From positions 3,720,001-3,784,000 of the forward strand of contig NZ_VIWU01000001.1 in assembly GCF_007994075.1 (NCBI RefSeq): a DNA stretch of 64,000 bases. Direction: 5' to 3'. The position numbers were made by a program, and so were the translations under genes. Below the pieces are notes generated by a model. The model was given only the letters and a program-made list of their open reading frames with translations, was not told the DNA's origin and made no database searches. The stretch comes from Pseudonocardia hierapolitana (GTDB taxonomy: Bacteria > Actinomycetota > Actinomycetes > Mycobacteriales > Pseudonocardiaceae). Shown here in pieces: positions 36,278 to 63,577 of this stretch (its first letter is position 1; every line of letters begins with the position of its first letter).

Positions 36278-36442
36278 TAGGCCGTGTTCAGGAGGTCCGG
36301 GTCGATGGGCTTCGTGATCCAGGCGGCCGCTGGCAAGGCGGAGGTTCGAGCCGTCGTACTGGAATACCCGGTCGGGCCGACAACGCAGCCAGCGGCCGCC
36401 TGGGCGCGAAGACCGCGATCCGGACCTCCTGAACGCGGCCTA
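36278..36442. repeat. 165-bp palindromic element (family R3), copy A
   Basis: The ends TAGGCCGTGTTCAGGAGGTC (from 36278) and GACCTCCTGAACGCGGCCTA (to 36442) are inverted repeats with one mismatch. An inner perfect 16-bp inverted repeat, CCAGGCGGCCGCTGGC, lies at 36319-36334 and 36388-36403. The terminal CTA is the stop codon of the GntR gene read on the minus strand. The other copy (43706-43870) is the same length and shares the GCTGCGTTGTCG and CCTCCGCCTTGC internal blocks on one strand. Confidence 0.85.
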
Positions 36443-37159
36443 TGGCCGCACGCCGTCGGCTGTGCCCGACACCGTCCGGCGCAGGTGCTCGTGGTGGGCC
36501 GCGGCCCGCTCCCGCAGCGTCTCCGCGTCGCCTGCCACGAACGCCGCCAGCATCTGCTCGTGCTCGGCGTGCAGGGCGCGCCGCTCCGCGAGCGGCACCT
36601 GCGCCATCGGCTGGTACGGCTCGGTGAGGTTCCACGCCGACTCCAGCATCGCCTGCAACCGGTGCATCCCAGCCGGGGCGACGAGCGCGAGGTGGAACCG
36701 GCGGCTCTCGCGGTTGTAGCGCCGCACGTCGCCGTCCTCGATGGCGGCGGCGAGCGCGTGGTGGGCCTCCCGGGCACCGGCGTGGTCCGCGCCGTCCGCC
36801 TGCGCGACGGCCGCCGCCAGTGCGGCCTGCTCCAGCACGCCGCGCACCACGTACAGCTCGTCGAGCTCGGCCGGGGTCAGGCACGCCACGGTGTAGCCGC
36901 CGCGCCGCCGGTGTTCCACCAGGCCCTCGCCGACCAGCGTCTTCAAGGCCTCGCGCACCGGGATCACGCTGACCTCGAACAGCGCCGCCACCTCGTCGCA
37001 GGGGATCGCGAGGCCGGGAGGGGCGTCGCCGGCGAGGATCACGCGGCGCAGCTCGTCGAGCACCGCCTCCGGCGCGCCGGTGCGGCGCGACCGCGACAGC
37101 TCCGCCACGAACGTGGAGACGTCGTCCGGCAGGCGGCGCCGGGGCCCGTGACCGGTCAT
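36440..37159 (-). CDS. GntR-family regulator, FadR/FCD type
   Basis: The 239-residue protein has a winged-helix domain near residues 20-85 (CDEVAALFEVSVIPVREALKTLVGEGLVEH) and a helical FCD ligand domain in the C-terminal half with metal-type histidines (RRFHLALV, HAEHEQML). It lies between the racemase/permease genes and urease on the same strand, so it may control ureide and urea use. Its stop codon lies in the end of an R3 repeat. The ligand is unknown. Confidence 0.88.
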   Translation of the reverse strand: MTGHGPRRRLPDDVSTFVAELSRSRRTGAPEAVLDELRRVILAGDAPPGLAIPCDEVAALFEVSVIPVREALKTLVGEGLVEHRRRGGYTVACLTPAELDELYVVRGVLEQAALAAAVAQADGADHAGAREAHHALAAAIEDGDVRRYNRESRRFHLALVAPAGMHRLQAMLESAWNLTEPYQPMAQVPLAERRALHAEHEQMLAAFVAGDAETLRERAAAHHEHLRRTVSGTADGVRP

Positions 37160-37163
37160 CGCC

Positions 37164-37943
37164 TCACCGTACGGCCGGCTGGTCGCCGACCACGCCCGCC
37201 GACCAGCCGGGGTGGGCGGCAACGGCATCGGCGAGCGCGCGCTGCGCGGAGACCGCGTCGCTGCCGACGGCCGTGGCCAGGCTGCCCCGGCCGGGCAGCG
37301 GGCTGAGCGACCACCAGCCCCCGGCCACCGCCTCAGCAGGGTCCTCCCCCCACACGAGCACCTCGGTGCCCAGCACCCGCCGGCCCGCCAGGTGCGCGGG
37401 TGAGGCCTGGAGCGCGGCGTCGCCCAGCTCCTGCTCCTGCACGAGCAGCGGCCGGGCCCCGTCCCGCACGCGGACGAGCCCGCGGAACCGGCCGGACGCC
37501 TCGCCGCTGCGGCCCGCCACCAGCACCTCCCGGCACCGCAGCCGCGACCCGGCGCCGAGCCCGACGTGCAGCTCGCCGTGGTGGTCGGCGCGCCGCGTGA
37601 CCACGGTCGGTTCGGGGAGGAACTGCAGCCCGGCGCCGTCGGCCACCAGCAACCGGATCACGAGGCGGCTGGGCCTGCCGGTCTGCCCGGGCAGCGCCAG
37701 TGCTGCGGCCACCCCGGTGAGCACGAGGTCGGCGCCCGGCCCGACCTCGACGTCGAGGGCCACGTCGTCGCCGCCCAGCGGGCTCGTGGCCGAGCCGACC
37801 ATGTGCACGGTGGCCACCGGCGAACGTGCGGCCGCGGCGCCCCGCTGGGGCAGCAGCGCCAACGGAGGCTGCGAGCGCAGCTCCCGTACGACGCTGCGCC
37901 CGTCCGGGCCGAGCTCGACGACGACGCGTGCCCTCCCTCGCAC
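37164..37943 (-). CDS. ureD: Urease accessory protein UreD (UreH)
   Basis: The 259-residue protein is a nickel-insertion scaffold that binds apo-urease with UreF and UreG. Recognisable segments are [16 protein letters not shown] and FLPEPTVV, followed by [18 protein letters not shown]. It is the last gene of ureABCFGD. It starts at a GTG that shares one base with the ureG stop (TAGTG), so translation is coupled. The sequence is divergent, as usual for UreD. Confidence 0.88.
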
Positions 37944-38650
37944 TAGACCGGGGTGCTGACGGTCGCCACCTGGGCGAGGACCCACTCGGCGACCTCCGTG
38001 GCGGCCGGGTCGGCCACCAGCGACTGCGCGATCACGGGCAGCTCGCCGCGCATGCGGTGCGCGTCCGAGGTCATGACGTCCAGGTCGGCGCCGACGAGCG
38101 GGGCGAGATCGATCTTGTTGATCACGAGCAGGTCGGCGGTGGTGACCCCCGGCCCGCCCTTGCGCGGCACCTTGTCCCCGCCTGCCACGTCCACCACGAA
38201 GATCTGCCGGTCCACCAGCCCGCGGCTGAACACCGCGGTGAGGTTGTCGCCGCCGCTCTCGACCAGCACCAGGTCGAGGTCGCCGAACCGCTCCTCGAGC
38301 AGCTCGATCGCGTCGAGGTTGGCGGTGATGTCGTCGCGGATCGCGGTGTGCGGGCAGCAGCCGGTCTGCACGGCCTCGATCCGCTCGGGCGCGAGCACCG
38401 CGTTGCGACGCAGGAAGTCGGCGTCCTCGGTGGTGTAGATGTCGTTGGTCACGACGGCGAGGTTCAGCCGCTCGCCCAGCGCGCGGGCCAGGGCCGCCAC
38501 CAGCGCGGTCTTGCCGCTGCCGACGGGCCCGCCGATGCCGATCCGCACCGCGCGACCGCGCGGCTCCAGCGGTTCGTGCCGGTCGGGCTCCGACTCTGTC
38601 GGGTCGAGACTGATCAGGTGATCGTGGCCATGACCATGACTAGTGCTCAT
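37943..38650 (-). CDS. ureG: Urease accessory GTPase UreG
   Basis: The 235-residue GTPase delivers nickel to urease. The P-loop is [11 protein letters not shown] (about residues 41-51), the conserved metal motif CPH is in [11 protein letters not shown], and the NKID motif is present. The N-terminus is histidine-rich (HGHGHDH) and may store nickel. ureE is absent from the cluster, so the His stretch may take over its role. It overlaps ureD by one base and is 20 bp downstream of ureF. Confidence 0.95.
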
Positions 38651-38670
38651 GTTCGCTCCGCACGCTCCGC

Positions 38671-39347
38671 TCAGCTGACAAAGAGACGCACCTGCTCCCG
38701 GTGTTGACGAACGTGGGCCTGGGCCATGAGGTCGAGCACCGGCGCGCCGGGCGCAGGCAGCCGGTCGGCAGGCCGGGACGCGGCCGCCTCGGCGACGACC
38801 GCGTCGAGCGCGGGCCGCAGCGCGACCACCGCGGCGTTGACGGCGAACGGGTCCAGGCCGAGCAGCCGCACGGCGGCCGACGCCGGCCCGCTCAGGGCGA
38901 GGTAGGCGGCACACTGCGCGGCCTCTGCCGGGCTCCCGCCGTCGATTCCGATCACGGCCCCGACCAGCAGCGGATGGTGCGGCCGGGCCGCTGCGGCCAC
39001 GAGCGTGTCCAGCACCGGCGACGGCCATGCCACGCGTGCCGCGCGCAGGGCGGCCCGGCCCTGGGCCCGGGACGCCTCGCGCTGGGCGGCGGCAGGCGTC
39101 CTGGCGTCCAGCTCCGCGTCGAGGACGGCGAACGGGTCCCCGGCGCCGCGGGCGGTCGCGACCGCCGCGGCGGCGAACGCGGCCGCGACCAGCCCGGCCG
39201 TCCGCAGCCGGCCGTGCAGGAACGGCGCCAGGTCGGCCACGCCCGTGACGAGCCCGCGGGCGACGGCCTCCTCCAGCCCGCCGGAGTGCACGTGGCCGCC
39301 CCCGGGGAAGCGGGCGTCGGCGAGGGTGAGGGCGGCGAGCGAGCTCA

Positions 39348-39348
<1 letters not shown>
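38671..39348 (-). CDS. ureF: Urease accessory protein UreF
   Basis: The 225-residue helical protein acts with UreD and UreG in nickel-site assembly. The N-terminal block [24 protein letters not shown] is diagnostic. The start ATG overlaps the ureC stop by one base (TGATG). The C-terminus ends in [20 protein letters not shown], as expected for the family. It is of normal length. Confidence 0.93.
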
Positions 39349-41059
<1,711 letters not shown>

Positions 41060-41063
<4 letters not shown>

Positions 41064-41413
41064 GGTGTGGGCTCCGATCCGCGCTCGTCGAGAGCGCCTG
41101 CGAACTCGGGGCGCAGGCCGGGCACCCGGCGGGCGCCGGCGAGCGGCACGAGCACGACCTCGCGCTCGACGCCCGGTTCGAACCGCACGGACGTGCCCGC
41201 GGGGATGTCGAGGTGGCGGCCCCACGCAGCGGCCCGGTCGAACTCCAGGCCGGGGTTCACCGCGGCGAAGTGGAAGTGGGAACCGACCTGCACGGGCCGG
41301 TCCGCCGCGTTGGTGACGACGACGGTGACCCGATCCCGGCCGGGGTTGAGCGGCACGGCCCCCTCCCCGGGGATGATCTCACCGGGGCCACCCGGTCCTG
41401 CTGAGCCGGCCAT
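41060..41413 (-). CDS. ureB: Urease beta subunit
   Basis: The 117-residue subunit shows the family core: a start near [13 protein letters not shown], then [18 protein letters not shown] and [12 protein letters not shown]. It forms the outer layer of the (alpha-beta-gamma)3 complex. It overlaps ureC by four bases and ureA by one, so the structural genes are coupled. The N-terminus has an unusual glycine/proline lead-in ([10 protein letters not shown]). Confidence 0.95.
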
Positions 41414-41715
41414 CAGACGATCGGGCTGTGGACGGTGACGAGCTTGGTGCCGTCCGGGAAGGTGGCCTCGACCTGCACCGAGTCGAGCATCTCGCCCACG
41501 CCGTCGAGCACGTCGTCCTTCGAGAGCACTTCTCGTCCGCTCGACATGAGCTCCCCGACCGTGCGCCCGTCTCGCGCACCCTCCAGCACGTGGTCGGTGA
41601 TCAGCGCGACCGCCTCGGGGTAGTTCATCCGCAGCCCGCGTGCCTTGCGGGCCCGCGCGACGTCGGCCGCGACGTGGACGAGCAGCTTGTCGCGCTCCTG
41701 GGGGCTCAGGTGCAT
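41413..41715 (-). CDS. ureA: Urease gamma subunit
   Basis: The 100-residue subunit opens [20 protein letters not shown] and continues with [14 protein letters not shown] sequence (here [21 protein letters not shown]) and the typical C-terminal VTVHSPI. It leads the ureABCFGD operon. The upstream 120 bp are shared with a divergent membrane-protein gene and hold the operon promoter, which was not resolved. Confidence 0.96.
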
Positions 41716-41837
41716 GGCGCCATCCTCACCGCGGTTTGTTACTCGGATGCTTCGATCATGTTTCTGCGGCGGCCTCCGTGACGGAGCGCATGCGCCTGCA
41801 CCGGGCAGCCCTCACCTGATCGTGAGAGGGTGCCCGG

Positions 41838-42560
41838 ATGAGCGAGCCAACGCAGTGGGGCCCGCCACGTTTCGATGCGGCTCCCCGACCGACAGCTCAC
41901 TACCCGACCGCTCCCCATCCGACCGCTCCCCACCCGGCCGGCCACCGACCCGCCGGCCCGCCCCCGGCGGCGCAGGACAGGACGGCGTTCCTCCCCACCA
42001 CGCCGATCCCGACCGTGCGGGCGGAGATCCCGCGAAGCCCGGTGCCGCGCCACCCTCCCGATGACGACTACGACGACTACTCGTCGGGGCGGCCGCGCAG
42101 GCGCGGGCAGGTCTTCGCAGGCCTGGTGCTGCTCCTGGCGCTGGCCGTGTCGGCGCTGATGTACTACCTGACCTACCAGACGCTCGCGTCGGTCCGCATC
42201 ACGTCCGGCGACGGGGTCGGTGGCGTCGGCGGCCAGGTGTTGAGCCTGGGCACGGTGATGTTCGCGGCGCTCGTGGTGTTCGTGCTCGCCGTGATCGCCC
42301 TCGTGATCGCCCGCCCCAAGGCGCTCGCCGGGCTCGGCCTCGCCGCGTCGCTGCTGCTGCCGGTCGCCGCCCTCGTGATGGGCCTCTGGTACGGCGGCTC
42401 GGTGCTGCGGCAGAACGTCGAGAGCGAGATCGCGCAGGCGGGGCCCGAGGTCGCGGCCCAGGGTGCGGCCGCGGTGGCCGACGCCATCGTCCAGGAGCTG
42501 GAGAACCGCGGGATCGACGCCGGCCCGGTGCGCGATCTGATCAGGAGCGCCGTGGGGTAG
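41838..42560 (+). CDS. Proline-rich N-terminal membrane protein, unknown function
   Basis: The 240-residue protein has a disordered N-terminus (about residues 1-85) rich in P, T and H, with short repeats such as YPTAPHPTAPHP, then an acidic DDDYDDYS patch and a basic stop-transfer-like RPRRRGQ. Three hydrophobic segments follow (about 95-115, 135-160, 165-190), then a soluble helical tail. No enzyme motif was seen. It resembles Rv0361-type actinobacterial membrane proteins in plan only. Its last 20 bp overlap the convergent TetR gene. Confidence 0.72.
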   Translation: MSEPTQWGPPRFDAAPRPTAHYPTAPHPTAPHPAGHRPAGPPPAAQDRTAFLPTTPIPTVRAEIPRSPVPRHPPDDDYDDYSSGRPRRRGQVFAGLVLLLALAVSALMYYLTYQTLASVRITSGDGVGGVGGQVLSLGTVMFAALVVFVLAVIALVIARPKALAGLGLAASLLLPVAALVMGLWYGGSVLRQNVESEIAQAGPEVAAQGAAAVADAIVQELENRGIDAGPVRDLIRSAVG

Positions 42561-43173
42561 CAGACGGGTAGTCCAGACCTCCCGCCAGCAGGTCGAACGC
42601 CTCCTCGAGCAGGTTCGACAGGGGCGCGTCCGGCCGGTGGACCTGCCATTCGCCCACCGCGGCCTCGAGCGCGCACAGCACGATCGTCGCCACCAGCTGC
42701 GGCCGTCCGTCGCGGGCCGGGTCGACGCCCATCCGCATCGCGAGCAGGCGCGCCATCTCGCCGCTGCGGAGCGCTCCCCGGTGCAGCGATGCCGCCCGCA
42801 CGGTCGGGCTGCTGAGCAGCAGTGCGCGGACGCTCCGGAGGCGGATCCCGCCGTCTTCCGACCCTGCGTCCTCGTGTGCGCGCACCGTCCCGACGACGGC
42901 CCGGCGCAACGCCGTGAGCACCGACTCCGCGGGCGGGCGCGCCTCCAGCGCGCGGATCACCTCGGTGACCTGCTGGTCCAGCACCGAGACGGCGACGTCC
43001 TCCTTCGACGAGAAGTAGCGGAAGAACGTCCGCGGCGAGATGTCGATGGCCACCGCGATCTGCTCGACGGTGGTGTTCTCGACTCCCTGGCGCGCGAACA
43101 GCGCGCAGGCGGCGTCGGTCAGGGCCTCGCGCGTTCGCTGCTTCTTGCGTTCGCGCAGCCCGGATCCACTCAC
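42541..43173 (-). CDS. TetR-family transcriptional regulator
   Basis: The 210-residue protein has a TetR helix-turn-helix near residues 15-60 (ALTDAACALFARQGVENTTVEQIA, then ISPRTFFRYFSSKEDV) and a C-terminal ligand domain with no clear homology. The GTG at VSGSGLRERKK is used. It is divergent from the F420-type reductase gene, with a palindrome between them, and likely represses it. Its 3' end overlaps the convergent membrane-protein gene by 20 bp. Confidence 0.88.
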   Translation of the reverse strand: MSGSGLRERKKQRTREALTDAACALFARQGVENTTVEQIAVAIDISPRTFFRYFSSKEDVAVSVLDQQVTEVIRALEARPPAESVLTALRRAVVGTVRAHEDAGSEDGGIRLRSVRALLLSSPTVRAASLHRGALRSGEMARLLAMRMGVDPARDGRPQLVATIVLCALEAAVGEWQVHRPDAPLSNLLEEAFDLLAGGLDYPSATPRRS

Positions 43174-43233
43174 CGGGGCACCGTACGCCGAGCACGATCG
43201 CGACACAAAGCGCCATGTGTCACTTGCTGTCAA

Positions 43234-43250
43234 CTGTCATACTATGACAG
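43234..43250. promoter_or_regulatory. Perfect palindrome overlapping a start codon, probable TetR operator
   Basis: CTGTCAT-ACT-ATGACAG is a perfect 7-bp inverted repeat. The ATG of the following gene lies inside the right arm. TGTCA half-sites also occur just upstream (TGTCAC and TGTCAA), so several operator-like boxes are stacked. A bound repressor would block initiation directly. Confidence 0.65.
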
Positions 43251-43708
43251 AATCTGGCATGCCCAAGGCCCCGCCTGCCTCGTCCCCGTTCTGGAAGTTG
43301 CACCGCCATGGCGCCCGCCTGAACCGGGTCCTCTTCCGCTGGAGCGGAGGGCGCGTCGGGGGGACCTTCCGCGGTGCACCCGTCCTGCTGCTCGACCACG
43401 TCGGCCGCAGGTCGGGCGTCCCGCGCACCAACCCCCTGATCTACCTGGACGACGCCCCGAACCTCGTCGTCGTGGGGTCGAAAGGGGGCACCGACACGCA
43501 CCCGGCCTGGTTCCACAACCTCATGTCGATGCCGATGACGGAGGTCGAACTGCCGGGCGGCGTGCGTCGCCGGGTGCGGCCGCGGGTCGCGGAAGGGGAG
43601 GAACGCGAGCGGCTGTGGGGTCGGCTCGTGCAGGTCTACCGGCCCTATGCGGCCTACGCGACCTACACCGACCGGGAGATCCCGGTCGTCGTCCTCGAGC
43701 CCATGTAG
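43244..43708 (+). CDS. F420/FMN-type nitroreductase (deazaflavin-dependent oxidoreductase family)
   Basis: The 154-residue protein resembles the Ddn-like nitroreductase family of the split-barrel fold, with PFWKLHRHGARLNRVLFRWSGGRVGG and the conserved LDHVGRRSGVPRTNPLIYL, then GGTDTHPAWFHNL. Members reduce substrates with F420H2 or FMN, including quinones and nitroimidazoles. Start and stop are both unusual: the ATG lies in an operator palindrome, and the TAG stop is the first triplet of an R3 repeat. Confidence 0.82.
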   Translation: MTESGMPKAPPASSPFWKLHRHGARLNRVLFRWSGGRVGGTFRGAPVLLLDHVGRRSGVPRTNPLIYLDDAPNLVVVGSKGGTDTHPAWFHNLMSMPMTEVELPGGVRRRVRPRVAEGEERERLWGRLVQVYRPYAAYATYTDREIPVVVLEPM

Positions 43709-43870
43709 GAGCGTGCTGAAGAGCCCCGACCTACTGCGCGACGCCCAGGCGGCCACCTCGCTGCGTTGTCGTCGTCGCAGATACGACCCGGTATCGGCCT
43801 CCTCCTCCGCCTTGCGATGTGGCCACCTGGACGCCGCTCGCTACGGCCGGGGCCCTTCAGCACGCTCCTA
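43706..43870. repeat. 165-bp palindromic element (family R3), copy B
   Basis: TAGGAGCGTGCTGAAG (from 43706) and CTTCAGCACGCTCCTA (to 43870) are perfect terminal inverted repeats. The internal arms CCAGGCGGCCACCTCGC and GCGATGTGGCCACCTGG pair with two mismatches. The left TAG is the stop of the F420 gene, and the right CTA (TAG on the minus strand) is the stop of urtE. The length is identical to copy A. Confidence 0.85.
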
Positions 43871-44560
43871 GATCGCCATCGCCGACCGCACGTCGGTGAC
43901 CGAGTCGGCGCCGCCGCTGCCCTCCGCCGTCACCCGCCCCGAAGCGAGCACGTAGTAGTGGTTCGCGGCGTCGAGGGCGAAGCCGACGTGCTGCTCGACC
44001 AGCAGCACCGACAGCCCGCCGCGGCGGGTGAGCCCACGGATCGCGTCCTCGATCTCGGCCACCACGGAGGGCTGGATGCCCTCGGTGGGCTCGTCGAGGA
44101 TGAGCATCCGCGGCTGGGTGATCAGCGCGCGGGCGATGGCGAGCTGCTGGCGCTGCCCGCCAGACAGCAGCCCGGCGCGCCGCCCGAGCAGGTCCTTCAG
44201 CGCCGGGAAGAGGTCGAGCGCCTCGTCGATCAGGCCCTTGCCGCGGGGCTTCGTGTCGGCGACGACCTGCAGGTTCTCCAGCGTGGTCAGCTGCCCGAAC
44301 GACTGCTGGCCCTGCGGCACGTACGCGAGACCGCGTCGCACCCGCTGGTGCGGATGGGTGCCGGTGACGTCCTCGCCGTCCAGCAGGATCCGGCCCGACC
44401 GGGTGGGCAACAGCCCGACGGCCGCACGCAGCAGGGTGGTCTTGCCTGCGCCGTTGTGGCCCATCACGGCGACGACCCCGTCGGCGGGCACCCCGATCGT
44501 GACGCCGTGGATCACGGACGTGCGGCCGTAGCCGACCTCGACGTCGGTCATGGTCAGCAT
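43868..44560 (-). CDS. urtE: Urea ABC transporter ATP-binding protein UrtE
   Basis: The 230-residue ATPase has Walker A GHNGAGKT (about residues 34-41), signature LLSGGQRQQLAIARAL and Walker B MLILDEPTEGIQP. It resembles the LivF-like UrtE subunit of high-affinity urea importers. It starts directly at the urtD stop with no gap, and its own stop is supplied by an R3 repeat. It is the last gene of urtABCDE. Confidence 0.9.
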   Translation of the reverse strand: MLTMTDVEVGYGRTSVIHGVTIGVPADGVVAVMGHNGAGKTTLLRAAVGLLPTRSGRILLDGEDVTGTHPHQRVRRGLAYVPQGQQSFGQLTTLENLQVVADTKPRGKGLIDEALDLFPALKDLLGRRAGLLSGGQRQQLAIARALITQPRMLILDEPTEGIQPSVVAEIEDAIRGLTRRGGLSVLLVEQHVGFALDAANHYYVLASGRVTAEGSGGADSVTDVRSAMAI

Positions 44561-61421: not shown

Positions 61422-63545
61422 TCAGTTGGTGTAGTCGGGCGGGGTGCCGCGGTGGCTGCCGTTCGTGGGCACTCCGTTGGTGATGCGGCGGCCGATCCGC
61501 TGCCGGCGTCCCTCGAGGAGCTCGGCCTGCAGGCGGGCCAGCAGCTGACGGTCGGCGTCGCTCAGCCGGGCGATCGAATCGGGGCGCAGCCCGATCTCCT
61601 CGCGTTCCTCACGATCCTGCCCGGACGGCTCGTCGCCGGCCTCCTCCGTCCGGTCGCGATCGGCGGAGGAGCCGTTCGCGGGCGGGTCGTCCGGGAAGCG
61701 GTGCCGGGCCGGGGAGCGGGGCACCGGGCGTGGCGCCGGACGGCCGGGTTCGACGTCCTCGACGGGCCCTCGCTCGGGCTCCGGCTCCCGCCGGGTGTCG
61801 GCGGGCTCGTCTAGGGCCGACGGGGCCATCGCCCAAGTGCCCGAGAGCCAGTCCTGCGACCAGTCGTCGTCGCTCTGCGGGGCGGCGGGTTCGGCGCGCC
61901 TGTCGTCAGCGCGCCTGTCGTCGGGGCGCCTGTCGTCGGGGCGCCCGTCGCCGGACGGCTTGTCGGCGGAGCCGAGGGGGTCGTCCTCCGGCCTGGTGGG
62001 GTCGAGCAGCGGCGCGAGCAGGGGCTGGTGCAACGGCCCGTTCAGCGGATCGCTCAGCGACTCGAAGGCAGGCGTGTCGCGCCGCGCGGGTGGCGGCTCC
62101 TGTGGCGGCTCGGGGCGCTCGTCGACGGGCGGCTGGAGCTCGTCCCGGTCGTCGTCGGCGCGCCGCAGCGACGGGCGTGGGTCGGTGACCGGGAGCGGCC
62201 GCGGGATCGGGTTGGGGCCGCCGCGCCTGACCAGCGGGATCGGGTTCGCCGCCGGCCGCGAGATCGGTGTGACGGTGGGCCGGGGCCGGCCGTCGCGCGA
62301 CGGCATCGGCGTGGGTGGGGGTGGCGGCGGGGCCGACGGCAGCGGGGTGGGCCGCACGGGACGCGGCTCGTCGCGCACCGGCAGCGGCCGGGGGGCCGCG
62401 AGCGGGTGCGGCGACGGCGGTTCCGGGAACGCCTCCTCCGCGTGGGCCGTCGCCTGCTCGTCGTCCGGCTGTTCGGCGTCGTCGCCGTCCCCGTCGTGGT
62501 CGCCGTCGTAGCGGTCGCCGTCGTAACGGCCGCCGTCGTCGTAGCGGTCCTCGACGTCGTCCTCGTCGTCCGGCGCGTCGTCCTCGTACTCGTCGTGCTG
62601 GTCGTCGGGGGAGTCGCCGAGACGATGTGAGGGCTCGGCCGTCAGCCGGGTGGTGGGCTCGGGCCCTTGCGGCCGCTCGCCGGCAGGTCGCAGCCGCGCG
62701 GTGGCGGCGGCGCTGTCCTCCGCAGCGCGGCCGTCGACCTGGGGCTCGGGATCACGCGGACGGTCCACCTCGTTCGCGTACCGCGGCGCAGGCGTGGGCG
62801 GCTCGGGGGCGAGGGGGTGGGGATCGGGGGCCCGTCGCCGGGGCGGCGGGCCGAGGGGTGGGGCGAGCGCGTGGCGCTGCACTGGGGGTGCCGGCTGCGG
62901 GCGCGGCGCGGGCGCGGGCTCGGGTGCGGGCCGCCACGGGCGTTCGTCGGCCACGTCGTCGCGCAGCTCGACGGCGGCGTCGAGCGCCGCGGCGTGGTAG
63001 GCCGGCACCGGGCCGTCGGCCGGCAGCACCTCGACCGACGCCGGGGCGCCTGCCCGCTCGAGGGCCGCCCCGAGCTGGTAGGCGAGCACGTCGGCACGGC
63101 GGGTGTGGTCGTGCACCCTGACCAGGACGACCGGATGCGGGAGCGGTCCCGGGGCAGCGCCTGCTGGGGTGAGACGACGGGCGAGCAGCACGCGGCAGCC
63201 GGTGAGCGGGCGAGCCGGGAACTCCAGCACCGCCCCGGCCACCGGGTCGTCGCCGACGGGTGCGGCGAACCGGTGCTCGGTGCCGTTCTCGGGCAGGGGC
63301 GGCGGCAGCGCGGCGGCGGGTCCGAGATCGGTGCGGGCGGTGCGGGCCGCGGCCACGAGGGCGGAACGGACCGGCGATGGCAGGACCGCTCTCGCGGCGA
63401 CCAGGCTCGCGGTGAGCATCTCGACGGCACGGGCGTCCTCGCCGAGTGCGACCAGCTCGCGTGCCCAGCGCAACAGGTCGTCGTCGACCCGCCCGGCCAG
63501 TGCCAGCAGCAGGTCGTGCGTCGTGCCCGACGTCGGGTCCTCCAC
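61422..63545 (-). CDS. Large proline/aspartate-rich protein, unknown function
   Basis: The 707-residue protein has a folded-looking N-terminal region (about 1-200, with EDPTSGTTHDLLLALAGR and a block ending SVEVLPADGPVPAYHAAALDA). The rest is a long low-complexity stretch of P, A, D, E and R, with runs such as APPLGPPPRRRAP and DRRPDDRRADDRR, and ends in RRQRIGRRITNG. The GTG start fits. The N-terminal block resembles the 3' neighbour's SVEVLP/YHQAA segment, so they may share a domain. No enzyme motif was recognised. Confidence 0.7.
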   Translation of the reverse strand: MEDPTSGTTHDLLLALAGRVDDDLLRWARELVALGEDARAVEMLTASLVAARAVLPSPVRSALVAAARTARTDLGPAAALPPPLPENGTEHRFAAPVGDDPVAGAVLEFPARPLTGCRVLLARRLTPAGAAPGPLPHPVVLVRVHDHTRRADVLAYQLGAALERAGAPASVEVLPADGPVPAYHAAALDAAVELRDDVADERPWRPAPEPAPAPRPQPAPPVQRHALAPPLGPPPRRRAPDPHPLAPEPPTPAPRYANEVDRPRDPEPQVDGRAAEDSAAATARLRPAGERPQGPEPTTRLTAEPSHRLGDSPDDQHDEYEDDAPDDEDDVEDRYDDGGRYDGDRYDGDHDGDGDDAEQPDDEQATAHAEEAFPEPPSPHPLAAPRPLPVRDEPRPVRPTPLPSAPPPPPPTPMPSRDGRPRPTVTPISRPAANPIPLVRRGGPNPIPRPLPVTDPRPSLRRADDDRDELQPPVDERPEPPQEPPPARRDTPAFESLSDPLNGPLHQPLLAPLLDPTRPEDDPLGSADKPSGDGRPDDRRPDDRRADDRRAEPAAPQSDDDWSQDWLSGTWAMAPSALDEPADTRREPEPERGPVEDVEPGRPAPRPVPRSPARHRFPDDPPANGSSADRDRTEEAGDEPSGQDREEREEIGLRPDSIARLSDADRQLLARLQAELLEGRRQRIGRRITNGVPTNGSHRGTPPDYTN
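61896..61955 (-). repeat. Four tandem 15-bp units in a coding region
   Basis: Four 15-bp units based on GCGCCTGTCGTC encode RPDDRR-type pentads in the protein above. Two are identical, so recent slippage is plausible. Copy number may vary between strains. Confidence 0.75.
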
Positions 63546-63577
63546 CTGGCCTCCTCCCCTAGAGTCGGTCGCTCCCC

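Follow-up and report, generated by a model that had tools for sequence, protein, structure and literature searches.

Two 165-bp palindromes in a Pseudonocardia chromosome as probable IS630-type miniature elements with a conserved, strand-specific core

We analyzed a 64,000-nucleotide stretch (the window) of the Pseudonocardia hierapolitana genome (contig NZ_VIWU01000001.1), which lies in an 8.86-Mb chromosome, and focused on two palindromes within it, element A (36278..36442) and element B (43706..43870). Judging from sequence, both are probably miniature inverted-repeat transposable elements (MITEs) moved in trans by a DDE transposase of the IS630/Tc1-mariner type, with a strand-specific core that is likely a folded RNA or single-stranded DNA (ssDNA); we put the probability of this reading at roughly 0.8. 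In the mechanism that we propose, such a nonautonomous element would insert by cut and paste, duplicating a TA, and insertions inside genes would be purged, leaving those at stop codons and at intergenic CTAGs. The arms would double as the inverted repeats of the transposase and as the stem of a hairpin, and they would drift jointly, probably through arm-to-arm correction and selection for folding, while the central motif would most likely work as a folded RNA or ssDNA.

A script comparison showed that A and B are each exactly 165 bp long, begin with TAG, end with CTA, and are imperfect palindromes, with 22 of the first 24 positions of the outer arms paired in either copy. The blocks GCTGCGTTGTCG and CCTCCGCCTTGC are common to both once one copy is reversed; the center is asymmetric and lies in opposite orientations in the two copies. 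The plus strand of A is its better-folding strand and carries GCAAGGCGGAGG (36333..36344) and CGACAACGCAGC (36378..36389), both read directly. In B the minus strand folds better and carries GCAAGGCGGAGG, and the plus strand shows GCTGCGTTGTCG at 43760..43771 (the reverse complement of CGACAACGCAGC) and CCTCCGCCTTGC at 43804..43815 (the reverse complement of GCAAGGCGGAGG). The original prediction, a note made from the letters of the window, had described two such palindromes with near-perfect arms and shared internal blocks, and this description was borne out. The best-strand RNA folding energies of A and B (−134.4 and −121.7 kcal/mol) were lower than those of all 1,491 random 165-mers drawn from the window (mean, −81.7 kcal/mol; minimum, −114.8 kcal/mol). 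Both elements are noncoding, with no gene of their own evident by eye, and at the gathering threshold Rfam matched neither A nor B. At five loci of other genomes, Rfam likewise gave no match to the element up to an E value of 2, the two weak hits being to microRNA models.

A and B are members of one dispersed family. In their own genome, 10 BLAST matches to B-type sequence cover at least 161 of the 165 bp at 79 to 100% identity, and with the A-type copies L044, L045, and L046 and two copies with a third type of end (L032 and L037) the full-length total reaches at least 15. Split and truncated copies are also present, and the B query found no match in plasmids. Together with the empty sites in relatives, this dispersal sustains the earlier suggestion that the element is mobile.

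To find empty sites, we searched the joined flanks of 12 copies, with a single TA kept, against 62 genomes of the genus and aligned 20 fetched loci of relatives, covering 9 insertion sites. The flanks were joined with one TA in 9 of the 20 loci (6 of the 9 sites), and the element sits between two TAs. Two further loci, at the L046 site, retained the TA next to a gap of 14 bp; three loci, at the L008 site, had no TA, and neither has the left end of copy L008; and five loci were too diverged or differently spaced to read. At the B site, genome G012 showed 95% identity across the junction, and its CTAG gives the stops of both convergent genes; the empty B site in a relative reads ...GAACCCGCC-TAG-ATCGCC. 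The relatives were too diverged for the empty site of copy A itself to be read. Among 12 copies fetched from one Streptomyces genome, C preceded the left TA in 11 and G followed the right TA in 10, and the usual target is CTAG. IS630 reportedly prefers CTAG as well, going by the title of a 1991 report by Tenzen and Ohtsubo. TA was present at both ends, as set by script, in 65 of 110 elements. The remaining one of the 20 loci, the B-orthologous site of genome G034 (L316, G034:C22 near 63344-63572), was not empty and held about 227 bp of other sequence.

That the element lies between two TAs, and that empty sites have a single TA, bears on whether this could be an ssDNA element of the REP/RAYT or IS200/IS605 type, with the folded strand as the transposition substrate. 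Strand-specific folding and a conserved unpaired motif could suit an ssDNA transposase, but the TA pattern, the long inverted repeats, and ends that match those of PF13358 elements make this very improbable. REP sequences, as portrayed in the excerpts of PMC3733652 that we drew on, are likewise palindromic multicopy repeats, but they are 20- to 40-bp palindromes with a GTAG or CGTC tag, unlike this 165-bp element with TA ends.

The features of bacterial MITEs, by contrast, are all found here: the elements are short and noncoding, with terminal inverted repeats, dispersed copies, and empty sites, and the duplicated TA target of IS630/Tc1-mariner MITEs is seen too, save at the three relative loci of one site that lack a TA. 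PF13358 transposases were present in 8 of 10 genomes searched, and of three multicopy IS630-type groups, two have CTAG at either end, and the third has CTAAG and CTTAG. We compared the ends of 9 IS630-type elements with 148 MITE ends over 18 positions, using 500 shuffles. Three of the nine matched MITE ends at 14 to 17 of 18 positions, and none of the 500 shuffles did as well. L341 matched MITE L121 of another actinomycete at 17 positions, and L331 and L332, both of this genus, matched third-type MITEs of the genus at 14 to 15 positions (L198 is the third-type copy of P. hierapolitana); all three enclose PF13358 matches and have ends set from single copies. The other six showed weak or no match. 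The end matches hold for MITEs with CTAGTGC/CTAGCGC ends, including the third-type copy of the own genome. The TA duplication, the CTAG preference, and the end matches of three of the nine IS630-type elements thus make it well supported that these are MITEs, probably of the IS630 type. Mobilization of the IS5/IS427 type, our first guess, was set aside for the family generally once PF13358 elements turned up whose ends match. We also considered an NF041680/IS701-type transposase gene that lies 138 bp away from a MITE copy on a Streptomyces plasmid (L369, NZ_CP109476.1); within the locus, the far side of this gene showed no end that matched with fewer than 7 of 20 mismatches, and we regard the gene as a neighbor and not the parent.

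Several known families resemble this one in part. The consulted passages of PMC2170065 describe the ISY100/IS630 transposase family as inserting at TA with its duplication, as here, but these are autonomous elements. RUP of Streptococcus pneumoniae (107 bp, linked to IS630-Spn1), in the sections of PMC2229807 used here, is also a small noncoding element with inverted ends, terminal TA, and target duplication for which an IS630-type transposase is proposed; RUP is, however, described in that account for a single species, and no functional motif is mentioned there, whereas here the ends vary by clade and the center is shared across phyla. Correia/NEMIS and ERIC, in the same sections (PMC2229807), are TA-flanked MITEs that fold into long hairpins, but they occur in other hosts, and our family differs in its central, strand-specific motif, a distinction made by description and not by sequence. 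PATEs and SMRs of Haloquadratum, according to the extracts of PMC3119063 considered, are small mobile repeats without a transposase; PATEs are described there as lacking terminal inverted repeats and SMRs as lacking target duplication, unlike this family.

What sets the family apart is its core, GCAAGGC-hairpin-AACGCNGC, in which the motif GC-AAG-GCG ... CAA-CGC-N-GC surrounds a variable hairpin. We searched with an exact two-block pattern whose 24 fixed bases are the 24 invariant positions and found at least 118 stretches that contain it among the species genomes, where by our own estimate less than 1 exact match is expected by chance. Among the 80 listed with titles, 60 were actinobacterial and 18 clostridial, with one unnamed bacterium (D16-56) and one Myxococcales metagenome-assembled genome (MAG); many core-bearing genomes are MAGs, and contamination is possible in single cases. 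The exact pattern occurred in 5 of the 62 genomes of the genus and had no match in viral contigs. Nine genomes chosen for holding a copy had 6 to 24 matches in eight cases and 1 in the ninth, and the core is multicopy in clostridial and Myxococcales genomes. The arms vary between clades, yet they remain inverted. A covariance model built from 65 centers, not tied to the exact pattern and scoring at most 13 candidates per genome, matched in 28 of 296 genomes of the phylum, at least 3 of these genomes resting on spurious-looking hits (L393 to L395); it also caught a class with GCAAGGCGCGAGGAG...CGACGAGCAACGCAGC. Read by eye, the common part is GCAAGGC...AACGCNGC. RNAalifold paired GC with GC, GCG with CGC, and a single G with C, placing AAG and GA/AA mismatches between them, and found two-sided changes in 13 of 19 pairs.

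MITEs as reviewed have ends in common with a parent and are reported from single species or narrow groups. In this family it is the ends that vary, and the body is kept from actinomycetes to clostridia, a conservation that calls for a function. These patterns suggest a strand-specific structured RNA, or ssDNA, borne by changing transposon ends, and the core may have an RNA function. More specifically, and with somewhat less than even odds, the family might be a mobile structured RNA with AAG and CAA internal loops, absent from Rfam, that spreads across phyla by swapping its arms for available IS630 ends and acts in trans, to its own benefit or to that of its host. We found no report of this family in the open-access literature searched; the conserved center provides a concrete motif, a family, and test organisms for work on function.

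The strand specificity was assessed in 110 elements with located arms, retained by our own filter (135 matches had been parsed before). The GCAAGG strand folded better in 108 of the 110, by a mean of 21.6 kcal/mol, and with the arms alone it did so in 109. Arm mismatches on this strand comprised 609 GT, 264 AG, and 127 GG against 89 AC, 34 CT, and 25 CC, that is, 1,000 G-containing mismatches versus 148 mirror ones, at similar ratios in each class (GT/AC, 6.8; AG/CT, 7.8; GG/CC, 5.1). G-type mismatches outnumbered C-type ones in 74 of 75 end families, which are only partly independent because they share ancestry in the inner arms. When the comparison was restricted to the outer 25 bp, it gave 56 versus 10. 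G-containing mismatches are the more stable ones, and a bias of G over C is expected if the strand must fold, as well as under a mutation bias linked to the element.

We also considered a set of 17 close copies (seven unorientable copies and the misoriented L412, L413, and L420 were left out). New single-copy changes at paired sites created 6 G-type and 5 C-type mismatches, and this balance, small as the numbers are, speaks against an element-linked mutation bias when set beside the long-run 1,000 versus 148. Of 15 single-copy changes on paired sites, 8 broke the pair, 4 kept it by G-U, and 3 were partner matched, the last concerning two base pairs, in L406 and L008. That the asymmetry is mutational, with pairing kept solely by template-switch correction between the arms, would agree with the about equally skewed mismatch classes and with compensated pairs in little-diverged copies (L406 and L008), but it fits poorly with the balance of new mismatches and with L009, which shows the G-U intermediate linking the A-U and G-C states of L008; we consider it unlikely. 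For the preservation of arm pairing as such, arm-to-arm correction and selection both fit.

Several results weigh against reading A and B as MITEs moved in trans with a folded core. On the side of movement, 45 of the 110 elements do not have a TA at each of the two script-set ends; G034 and G012 have B-type copies and yet no PF13358 match; and the resident IS630 matches the MITE ends at just 12 of 18 positions. Among the matches listed of the 62-genome scan, none was a transposase-bearing element with B-type ends: the two B-end pairs there at transposon length were both split copies, and the open reading frames (ORFs) scanned in them gave no transposase match. Likewise, no parent with A-type ends was found by BLAST in the own genome. 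A search for a parent with TAAGGGCTGTCCCG ends in five genomes likewise yielded no transposon-length pair: 27 of 30 returned loci had the partner end 165 to 172 bp away, and L239, L248, and L253 had none within the locus. On the side of the core, the mismatch asymmetry is one of G over C in general and not specific to G-U, and it does not decide between RNA and ssDNA; two-sided pair changes would be shown equally by a palindrome kept as DNA; and the core may be dispensable for movement, since core-less versions, mostly 56 to 72 bp long, exist at several loci. In addition, the scanned IS630 loci have no core of their own: three strong covariance-model hits occurred in 36 loci around PF13358 matches; two of them, in L338 and L365, belong to a single MITE next to an IS630, and the third, in L353, to an apparently complete stand-alone copy. 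The transposase thus seems not to need the core.

Because long palindromes are unstable, an ordinary IS630 MITE might carry the core as a DNA spacer that stabilizes the palindrome, or as a DNA-binding site, without any RNA function, and both the shorter length of core-less copies and the core-free IS630 loci agree with this. We hold it possible but doubtful, as the motif is kept across phyla, variants found without the exact pattern retain GCAAGGC and AACGCNGC by eye, and a mere spacer need neither keep such a motif nor yield the strand asymmetry of the arms. Among the core-less versions, L260 to L265 (in G042, G011, G033, and G058) measure 56 to 68 bp, consist of arms only, and have TA at both ends; L261 and L262, both in G042, have the same core-less junction, in keeping with versions that are either mobile themselves or recurrent deletions.

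The coincidence of element ends with stop codons had been noted in the original prediction, which held that the termini supply the stops of flanking genes. Those gene ends do coincide with the elements. The GntR/FCD regulator gene (36440-37228, minus) ends in a TAG at 36440..36442, minus strand, made of the right TA and the terminal base of A. At B, the F420H2-dependent quinone reductase gene (43040-43708, plus; PF04075) ends in a TAG at 43706..43708, and the ABC transporter ATPase gene (43868-44560, minus), named urtE in the prediction and matched in Pfam by the general PF00005 only, ends in a TAG at 43868..43870, minus strand. Both B stops predate the insertion, as the empty site shows. At A, the left TA (36278..36279) would be a target duplication by the rule taken from the empty sites of other copies, and with C before it, the GntR stop would probably be TAG with or without the element. 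As the element starts with G and ends with C, TA plus G makes TAG on both sides. The stops are thus at the element ends as claimed, but the element preserves them rather than supplying them.

Insertion at gene ends, also proposed earlier, is an outcome that we confirmed: of the 11 own copies that carry a TA on both sides, 8 coincide with a stop codon at an end. This is not far from expectation if insertions inside genes are lost. The window contains 479 TAs against 1,183 expected and 21 CTAGs against 157 expected; of the 19 CTAGs outside A and B, 7 are stops of called genes (one also inside another gene), 7 are only intragenic, and 5 lie elsewhere, and 21 of 469 TAs are stops. In other genomes, 18 of 48 usable elements ended on a stop versus 4 of 55 background CTAGs (Fisher test, P value = 0.0002), and a stop enrichment beyond CTAG availability is possible there; a caveat is that genes interrupted by an insertion will also end within the element. 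The stop and orientation counts rely on a crude gene caller, which failed to call the F420 gene next to B. TA/CTAG targeting with an end that rebuilds TAG may offer a rule for why elements are seated at stop codons in GC-rich genomes.

A selected bidirectional terminator, as the prediction proposed, or an mRNA 3′-end stabilizer would account for the very stable hairpin and for the ends on stops here and elsewhere. However, the 48 elements lay between convergent genes in 14 cases, tandem genes in 12 and 9, and divergent genes in 12, with 1 undetermined; there is neither a convergent excess nor an orientation bias relative to the better-folding strand, and divergent genes flank 12 of 47. This evenness argues that the folding strand is not chosen by host transcription and indicates no terminator role. 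Moreover, CTAG availability in the window largely accounts for the coincidence with stops, the conserved core would be left without explanation, and no T run, a feature of intrinsic terminators, follows either end of A or B by eye. We give this explanation little credence, even though so strong a hairpin could still terminate transcription despite the even gene orientation.

Three copies with B-type ends are split by other DNA: L073 in the own genome (G000:C1:3888808-3891967, 3.16 kb) by about 3.1 kb of gene-bearing DNA, L258 (G042:C1:5302740-5304299, 1.56 kb) by about 1.4 kb, and L259 (G036:C56:215393-221377, 5.99 kb) by about 5.8 kb. As candidate autonomous parents they were rejected, with no transposase family in the nine ORFs scanned, and we read them as split copies. 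The insert of L073 encodes an aldo/keto reductase and a GntR/aminotransferase regulator; that of L258 gave a weak ribbon-helix-helix match, and that of L259 holds dehydrogenase, MFS transporter, polysaccharide deacetylase, and LysR genes. By eye, all three break directly after GCAAG of the folding strand, and L258 and L259 have GTGATACC in common at the other junction, before the core resumes. These junctions could mark the core as a place where gene-bearing inserts land or attach, but with three cases only, most copies unsplit, and no recombinase identified in the scanned ORFs, this is hardly credible, and the breaks perhaps reflect the preference of one other mobile element. CAAG is the target of IS91-type elements, and the three breaks after it may point to a second mobile element aiming at the core. 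A stretch of L258 also resembles, by eye, part of a tyrosine recombinase.

Within an arm of some Streptomyces copies (L112, L369, and L370) there is a second GC-rich hairpin, about 30 bp long and of the CTCCCCC...GGGGGA type, possibly a separate small repeat. Elsewhere in the window, positions 40610-40899 match the Rfam family 5_ureB_sRNA with 62.3 bits (gathering threshold, 40).

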